In this document: positions 11,568-45,308 of the stretch, in pieces | How the letters are laid out: every line of letters starts with the position of its first letter | Position numbering within the stretch: the stretch's first letter is position 1 | Assembly (NCBI GenBank): GCA_011390165.1 | Contig: JAABSV010000013.1 | Location: 1 to 64,000, forward strand | DNA length: 64,000 nt | Direction: 5' to 3' | Origin: Desulfobulbaceae bacterium | Lineage (GTDB): Bacteria; Desulfobacterota; Desulfobulbia; Desulfobulbales; Desulfocapsaceae | Made by a program: the position numbers and the translations under genes | Notes under the pieces: generated by a model | What the model was told of the DNA's origin: nothing | The model's input: the letters and a program-made list of their open reading frames with translations, nothing else | Database searches by the model: none

Positions 11568-11640
11568 ATTTTTCCTCGGAATTGCCTATGTCGAAGGTCA
11601 AATTTTCAGGTAACTGCGTGCCAACGCGGTCCTGGTGGTC

Positions 11641-11794: not shown

Positions 11795-11843
11795 TGGTGG
11801 TCAGCACAACCTGGAGGGTGCGTCGGCTGCGCGGCGCAGTCAC

Positions 11844-44702: not shown

Positions 44703-45052
44703 ATGGTTCCTCCGTATCTGTTTCCAACAGCGGACACCCCGCCATTCACCGTATGCACAACCTGGTGTGCATCCCACGCAGAAAGATCCGTCAACCTGAT
44801 CGGCTACAGGCTACACCGGCATCGACGGTCACCTGCCTGCTTTCATTATATGCCCCTCACTCGGGGAATCAAGACTGCGGAGGATTTTCCGAGGGCATTC
44901 CAGGGAGATCAGACATTTTCCTCTCCCCCCTCGCCGAGAACTCTGGTCAATGCCGGAGTTTTCCGGTAAACTGTATGGCCTTTACTGCGTACAGCGTTGC
45001 CGACACCGACCGGCCGCCGCACCCCCCGCGGCAAATCATGGTTCAATTCGTC

Positions 45053-45202
45053 GTAACCGTTTACCAGCACCCCTTTTCGCCCGGTCAGGCCACCTGACCG
45101 GGCGAACTCCAGTTCGGCAGCCTGCCTGAACGAACCTGGAGTACTGGCTGAACGGCTACAGTCCGGGTATTTCGTTTTTGTTGCATACCGGTACACGGTT
45201 AC
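45053..45202 (-). mobile_element. MITE-like element, copy C, with perfect 8-bp target-site duplication
   Basis: This 150-bp element has perfect 8-bp terminal inverted repeats GTAACCGT (45053-45060) and ACGGTTAC (45195-45202). They extend imperfectly inward to ACC(A/G)G. It is flanked by identical AATTCGTC at 45045-45052 and 45203-45210. Internally CGCCCGGTCAGG (45078-45089) and CCTGACCGGGCG (45093-45104) form a perfect 12-bp hairpin. It has no reading frame. The GTAA ends and 8-bp duplications point to IS66-family mobilisation (known family traits; assignment inferred). It lies in the 606-bp gap between the HPF gene and hemH; the rest of that gap shows no gene. Confidence 0.88.
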
Positions 45203-45308
45203 AATTCGTCAACCATCCCTTTTTTATGAAAATGGTTGCCTTGCGGCTGACGCTGGGAGCAGAACAGGACAAAGCAGGACAACGTTGAACGATGGGGGAC
45301 AGCGACCG

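Follow-up and report, generated by a model that had tools for sequence, protein, structure and literature searches.

Bacterial MITEs, miniature transposable elements, are usually seen as leftovers of one local insertion sequence, keeping little beyond its ends. The Correia and ERIC elements are palindromic and about 100-150 bp long, and their hosts and end sequences differ from those of the family described here. Both are MITEs with folded transcripts that RNases cleave, a likeness in folding to the present family, but a three-ended layout and an order-wide strand asymmetry are not described for them in the available sections of a 2024 review of prokaryotic MITEs (PMC10969869). According to the same sections, QMITE elements have duplications of 7-9 bp, a stable predicted transcript fold and reported small RNAs, and differ in their ends of 23-29 bp and in being described there for one species (PMC10969869). 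The Chunjie MITE of Geobacter uraniireducens is likewise short and non-coding (178-235 bp), with inverted ends, direct repeats and tens of copies; it was reported for one genome, whereas the present family occurs in many genera, the comparison being by description only (PMC10969869, available part). A text search of the review gave no occurrence of IS66 (PMC10969869).

Within the IS66 family, the available text on the active element ISDge4 of Deinococcus geothermalis (ISBst12 group) gives the TIR GTAACTGCTCAGCA and an 8-bp repeat (PMC12898284). These GTAA-type ends and the duplication size resemble those of the element studied here, one end of which is GTAACTGTTCAGCA. ISDge4 and its group carry a transposase gene and have two ends only, whereas the MITE has three ends and no such gene (PMC12898284, part of the text). 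Further IS66 elements with 8-bp repeats are found in the portion of a table at hand from PMC3281130. Among the literature matches listed, we found neither a MITE linked to IS66 nor a repeat of this sort in Desulfobulbales, with subscription journals mostly outside the coverage, and the available text of the genome paper of Desulfurivibrio alkaliphilus (PMC5016858) contains no word starting with 'transpos' and one 'repeat', which refers to CRISPR. MITEs are thus a known kind of element, and the present variant is new as far as the literature searched can tell.

The window, that is the whole 64-kb stretch of DNA that was analysed, contains three copies of the element, designated A, B and C (Table 1). 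Copy C had been described in a sequence-only reading as a MITE with perfect 8-bp inverted ends, a perfect 8-bp target-site duplication, an internal perfect 12-bp hairpin and no coding capacity. The termini were found as described (GTAACCGT at 45053-45060 and ACGGTTAC at 45195-45202), and the inversion extends further, to 13 bp with one mismatch. The duplication AATTCGTC is indeed perfect on both sides of the element; the probability that 8 bp agree perfectly by chance at a given position is about 1.5e-5. The longest mechanical reading frame wholly within the element has 33 aa, consistent with a non-coding element. The hairpin is present and perfect, but its arms are 14 bp rather than 12 bp (45076-45089 and 45093-45106), and it is no family trait, since none of the other 29 aligned copies, checked by eye, shows it. 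This private palindrome sits where other copies have a diverged loop, and looks as if one arm had been copied locally onto its partner.

Table 1. Copies of the element in the 64-kb window and the parts of copy C (positions are those of the window).
Feature	Positions	Strand	Basis or remark
Copy A, 154 bp, locus L015	11641..11794	-	Perfect 8-bp duplication at 11633-11640 and 11795-11802 (GACCACCA in element direction)
Copy B, locus L022	41035..41191	-	Ends decayed, no duplication detected
Copy C, whole element, 150 bp, long form (end 1 to end 3)	45053..45202	+	BLAST and alignment
Copy C, left 8-bp target-site duplication, AATTCGTC	45045..45052	.	Letters read
Copy C, right 8-bp target-site duplication, AATTCGTC	45203..45210	.	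Letters read
Copy C, end 1, GTAACCGTTTACC	45053..45065	+	Alignment
Copy C, palindromic core, end 1 to end 2	45053..45159	-	Structure model R2
Copy C, end 2, internal inverted end, GTAGCCGTTCAGC on minus strand	45147..45159	-	Alignment and R2; terminus in few copies elsewhere
Copy C, end 3, GTAACCGTGTACC on minus strand	45190..45202	-	Alignment
Copy C, perfect 14-bp hairpin, 3-nt loop, private to this copy	45076..45106	.	Alignment

The element inserts with an 8-bp target duplication. Of 878 end pairs in loci chosen for a match to the element or to a candidate transposase, 108 (100 distinct, some loci overlapping) were flanked by a perfect 8-bp duplication, where about 0.013 would be expected. 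At least 40 candidate copies were found in the window genome by BLAST (40 of 101 candidates scored); the 42 match rows include a few that are pieces or the reverse strand of one copy, and rows other than copy C itself and its reverse strand were 71-88% identical to it over the matched part. Among the best 30 of these own-genome copies, eight have a perfect duplication in register, two more have one at a one-base shift (one of the two falling in an A-tract) and five have 7/8 in register. With the shift counted, perfect duplications flank 10 of the 30 and are not universal among copies. The Desulfurivibrio alkaliphilus genome gave 14 perfect duplications and six of 7/8 among 30 copies examined of 40 scored, and in other genomes 61 of 103 pattern matches, some of them at contig ends, had a duplication of 7-8/8. 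A 288-bp stretch at L129:6235-6522, with the ends GTAACCGTTCACC and GTAAGCGTTCAGC and the perfect 8-bp duplication CACCGGAT, is perhaps another MITE kind.

Sites lacking the element were found in relatives. The D. alkaliphilus copy L253 (duplication 7/8) is absent from the corresponding position in G049, give or take a few bases, with flanks 84% identical; the target letters themselves have diverged in the relatives. G128 and G040 also lack the element at this place. In G135 (L343, L339) a related element lies near the L253 site, with the ends GTAAGCGATCACAGG / GTAAGTAATCACGGG and the perfect 8-bp duplication GTTCAGCG, read by eye. For copy C, 12 of 14 genus genomes have both flanking genes on the same contig, and the sequence that separates the two genes gives no match to the element; this intergenic stretch is not alignable in these relatives.

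The identification as a MITE is upheld by these data. The 61 duplication-supported copies measure 107-232 bp, well within the 500 bp that bounds such elements; the ends are inverted (12/13 bp complementary between ends 1 and 3 of copy C) and of the GTAA type across the alignments, the duplication length is constant at 8 bp, and the element is non-coding and multicopy, with empty sites in relatives at L253 and at the copy C locus. The sequence-only reading had named copies without duplications, at positions conserved across species, as the pattern to be expected of an RNA gene or regulatory element. The result favours a transposon: duplications are common, L253 is missing in relatives and the copy C locus is empty there. 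An RNA gene or regulatory element conserved at fixed positions was rejected, as the copy C locus (one locus) is not common to the relatives and pairing is not kept among 16 own-genome cores. REP/BIME sequences are palindromic repeats without target duplication; this identity was rejected on account of the 8-bp target duplications.

Within the Desulfobulbales, an order of sulfur-metabolising bacteria, the element has a wide distribution. The family consensus matched 8 of 37 genomes, and a sequence model built from 30 copies found matches in 138 of the 242 genomes sampled from the order, representing 48 of 68 genera, with 12 candidates scored per genome; both counts include the window genome. 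A structure model of the core was applied across the phylum under strict filtering, scoring 9 candidates in each genome, and matched 16 of 395 genomes. Five of these belong outside the order; one locus of each was read, with a perfect duplication in two (L230 of G566 and L241 of G347), 7/8 in one (L237 of G578) and none in two. A pattern scan of named genomes revealed at least 101 matching stretches; the titles among the matches listed (80) were Desulfobulbaceae, Desulfobulbus, Desulfocapsa, Desulforhopalus, Desulfurivibrio, Desulfobia, Desulfobacterales or broader (Deltaproteobacteria, Pseudomonadota). The complete genome of D. alkaliphilus AHT2 contains at least 40 copies, as all 40 scored of 287 candidates matched. 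The exact pattern of the element had no matches in viral contigs. Many G128 contigs start or stop in near-identical partial element matches, so that recent expansion seems to disrupt the assembly there.

The alignments revealed a ~108-bp palindromic core flanked by ends 1 and 2, with end 3 lying 43-51 bp beyond. Well-preserved copies mostly have end 1, the inverted internal end 2 at ~107 bp and end 3 at ~150 bp, and end 2 was recognised in 86 of 97 duplication-supported elements, those of 140 bp or less being excluded from the 86. End 3 is the usual right terminus and end 2 is used rarely, because perfect duplications mostly flank pairs spaced 150-199 bp apart (80 of 100 distinct pairs; 85 of 108 before removal of repeats). 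Short forms stopping at end 2 were found with a perfect duplication at L099 (107 bp), L271 (108 bp) and L121 (124 bp, with an insert) and with a duplication of 7/8 at L130. One end pair with a perfect duplication is only 61 bp apart (L059). At L068:239-345 the core has the ends GTAAATATTCGGC, which are those of a different IS66 subfamily (L051, L303, L381); the core therefore seems able to swap ends.

An IS66-type transposase had been proposed as the likely mover, and the comparison with full-length elements supports this proposal. The MITE combines the 8-bp duplication with ends starting GTAA, the combination taken to mark the IS66 type. A survey of 30 IS66 loci yielded elements of 1.6-1.73 kb with perfect 8-bp duplications in G005, G158, G045, G188, G147, G133, G168 and G129, one of which was read and has a single large transposase frame, and an element of 2414 bp with a perfect 8-bp duplication in G028; the remainder were partial or without clear ends. 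In G219, 2411-bp IS66 elements with perfect 8-bp duplications and other ends (GTAAGCGGTAATT, GTAAGCGACCAAT) occupy six loci, and G158 has 2371-bp IS66 elements, again with perfect 8-bp duplications. Three of the nine IS66 13-mers compared, GTAACTATTCAGC, GTAACTATCCAGC and GTAACTGTTCAGG, occur unchanged as MITE ends, a correspondence seen across genomes; the other six were not found among MITE ends. In the window's own genus, G005 has a 2440-bp element with a DruA-domain gene, an IS66 gene and the ends GTAACCGTTCAGCGGG and GTAATCGTTCACCGGT, for which no duplication was found. GTAATCGTTCACCGGT is identical over 16 bp to end 3 of the family consensus, and it is also end 3 of single copies, such as the own copy L025, L035, L043 and copies of G003. 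Since duplication size, GTAA-type ends and 13-mer identities agree with the IS66 elements of the order, we infer with good support that an IS66-family transposase, acting in trans, is the best candidate mobiliser. A full IS66 element carrying GTAACCGTTYACC at both ends was not found among the loci fetched from the order.

The agreement has gaps, and these bear on whether the repeat is moved by a non-IS66 agent, such as an unrelated transposase with the same 8-bp duplication size. The MITE ends seen most often, GTAACCGTTCACC, GTAAGCGTTCACC and GTAACTGTTCAGC, are not among the nine IS66 13-mers. No PF03050 match was obtained in G026, G029, G066, G088, G347 and G578, though all six match the element models; they are 91-99% complete, and draft assemblies lose multicopy IS. 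Both points would fit a non-IS66 agent, but such an agent leaves unexplained the identity of three 13-bp ends, and of the duplication size, with those of IS66 elements in the order, as well as the match to the published ISBst12-group ends (PMC12898284, available text). We regard it as very improbable. As to the window genome, the search for an intact IS66 transposase gene returned pieces only, one with a GTAACTGTTCAGC end ~250 bp off, and the element itself looks decayed there.

The IS66 loci searched differ from the MITE in lacking its palindromic core, save for one 57-base match in L179 (277-333, both strands). A DruA-domain gene (PF14236, Druantia family) lies beside the IS66 transposase gene at L164:2236-4675, L175:1240-3653, L377:1146-3516, L378:2407-4777, L051:355-2993 and L381:3191-5680, and both genes were confirmed in L366, a sister copy of the G158 elements. 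The elements at L164, L175, L377 and L378 resemble the MITE in their GTAA-type ends, and those at L175, L377 and L378 also in their perfect 8-bp duplications; they are larger (2.37-2.44 kb), carry two genes and showed no palindromic core. DruA-type proteins may have originated as parts of transposons; IS66 is unmentioned among the literature matches listed for these proteins.

The 108-bp core is an imperfect palindrome, and its minus strand forms a long conserved stem-loop, as covariation and the counts of G-U and A-C pairs show. In four of four cores the minus strand folded far better than the plus strand. For copy C as a whole the strands differ little (plus -68.8, minus -74.0 kcal/mol) because of the private hairpin, while its core scored 75.8 bits (E 2.7e-18) on the minus strand and 36.2 bits on the plus strand against structure model R2, which was trained on 48 sequences with copy C among them. 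Those 48 cores (alignment A2) were hand-picked from 156 core calls, 74 of them <88% identical to each other and some made in both orientations. Excluded were misoriented cores, copies carrying inserts, cores that were truncated or wrongly called, and the majority of own-genome copies; L001, L008 and L030 were kept and L013 was added. RNAalifold predicted 41 pairs for these cores, 31 with double changes, and gave -55.2 for the minus strand vs -18.6 for the plus strand. The plus-strand consensus fold is weak, and alignment A1, in plus orientation, folds poorly.

Pairing was found in 93.8% of 1963 cells of the 48 cores vs 81.1% in shuffles, exceeding all 500 shuffles and all six slid controls, with the qualification that the cells are not independent because the copies are related. 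Covariation was 0.411, compared with 0.180 for shuffled and at most 0.090 for slid alignments. The minus strand was the more stable in 48/48 cores with both RNA and DNA parameters, with a mean difference of 16 kcal/mol; in a control in which the wobble strand was randomised this held for 28/48, with a mean of 1.4 kcal/mol. The minus-strand cells contain 271 G-U pairs, 27 A-C pairs and 94 other mismatches, and a tandem U-G/G-U is near-invariant, being kept in 45-46 of the 48 cores. Because the A2 structure came from the minus strand and so favours it, the pairs were recounted from a strand-neutral arm alignment of the 48 cores, which gave 246 G-U, 55 A-C and 238 other, with G-U leading in 45 and tied in 3. 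Other mismatches are thus not uncommon in either count, a point against the fold. A broader strand-neutral count over 109 distinct cores gave 554 G-U, 148 A-C and 576 other (G-U leading in 100, A-C in 5). The third arm has no conserved fold; here the plus strand was more stable in 34/48 and the minus strand in 14/48.

A micro-repeat, CG[AG]AGTCT-N(0-12)-CGCTTA[CT]CT, was observed 38 times in 1.88 Mb of loci, 28 times near the MITE motif by a loose test and 10 times not. It sits in the MITE cores of L081, L083, L098, L101, L108, L115, L132, L137, L147 and L150 and occurs elsewhere, e.g. at L107:3361-, L145:2296+, L221:2133- and L240:553-, with tandem stacks in L134 and L135. G/A near its start tends to accompany C/T near its end. 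A shortened form of the pattern had 0 matches in the window.

Covariation and the use of G-U pairs are typical of RNA, and MITE-derived small RNAs have been described (PMC10969869, available sections). Both would suit a mobile small-RNA gene, in which an own or neighbouring promoter drives transcription of the minus strand into an RNA acting in trans for the host or the element. However, at Rfam gathering scores the window gave 7 tRNAs only, leaving the element unmatched, and there was no match in 6 loci with copies; a known RNA family was rejected on this ground. The window-genome copies moreover lose pairing freely, and the copy C locus is not common to relatives. Taken together, this makes a mobile small-RNA gene improbable.

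The times at which the fold is kept were examined from single changes relative to the consensus. In 16 window-genome cores these were 22 G-U, 17 A-C and 37 other, i.e. without bias. In 30 D. alkaliphilus copies they were 24 G-U, 1 A-C and 13 other (9, 1 and 9 as distinct changes, so that the test rests on 10 distinct transitions). A G-U bias thus marks the changes in the D. alkaliphilus copies, whereas new changes in the window genome, whose copies are more diverged, lack it; for this reason the fold seems to be selected while copies are active, through their spread, and not site by site.

Near genes, the strong-folding strand is avoided as the sense strand (60 vs 25, p 0.0002). This count joins 45 vs 17 from a set of 97 elements with a duplication of at least 7/8 (reading frames called crudely) with 15 vs 8 from D. 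alkaliphilus, which alone is not significant. The orientation bias argues against a role in flanking mRNAs, and it is also what would be expected if the element were an ordinary imperfect-palindrome MITE whose asymmetry is a by-product of selection against strong mRNA-sense hairpins. The weak-folding strand would then be mostly the transcribed one, mismatches weakening it would appear as G-U on the other strand, and double changes would arise by copying of arm onto arm. Copy C, with its new perfect 14-bp palindrome in the core, resembles such arm copying, and A-C pairs are rarer than other mismatches when compared with an estimated plain transition/transversion expectation. However, a by-product of this kind does not explain the excess of G-U over other mismatches (271 vs 94), a margin that is small in the strand-neutral count (246 vs 238), nor the near-invariant tandem U-G/G-U (45 and 46 of 48). 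In D. alkaliphilus, moreover, the orientation bias is not significant, yet the single changes stand at 24 vs 1. We therefore consider a mere by-product unlikely, while taking it seriously as an alternative. Insertion biased by replication strand was rejected, as no replichore bias was seen in D. alkaliphilus (19 vs 20; 40 copies, one near a skew change omitted, with GC skew from 20 sampled stretches). A lagging-strand route is accordingly not favoured.

We consider it probable that the element is a MITE moved in trans by IS66-family transposases, with alternative right ends and with a folded single strand of the core aiding its spread. An IS66-family transposase supplied in trans would move the element; insertion duplicates 8 bp of the target, and these duplications show that the right terminus is end 3 and, on rare occasions, end 2 within the element. 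The core's minus strand, folded into the long stem-loop as RNA or single-stranded DNA, would take part in the spread. We lean towards RNA rather than single-stranded DNA, because G-U pairs are frequent and the tandem U-G/G-U is kept in nearly all cores. A more specific proposal, which we advance tentatively, is that an old non-autonomous IS66 lineage, present in much of the order and in scattered genomes of the phylum, keeps its strand-specific, wobble-paired core since the folded RNA or single-stranded DNA is needed for transposition.

The mechanisms of IS66 elements are called insufficiently characterized in the available text of PMC12898284. The family described here retains a 108-bp core over many genera, has ends that represent more than one IS66 kind and bears strong signs that one folded strand is under selection. 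Should mobility depend on the fold, a direct test of how IS66 elements move opens. If the tentative proposal is true, a DDE-type transposon would rely on a folded RNA or single-stranded DNA form, which would be new for the type, and would have a choice of two right ends.
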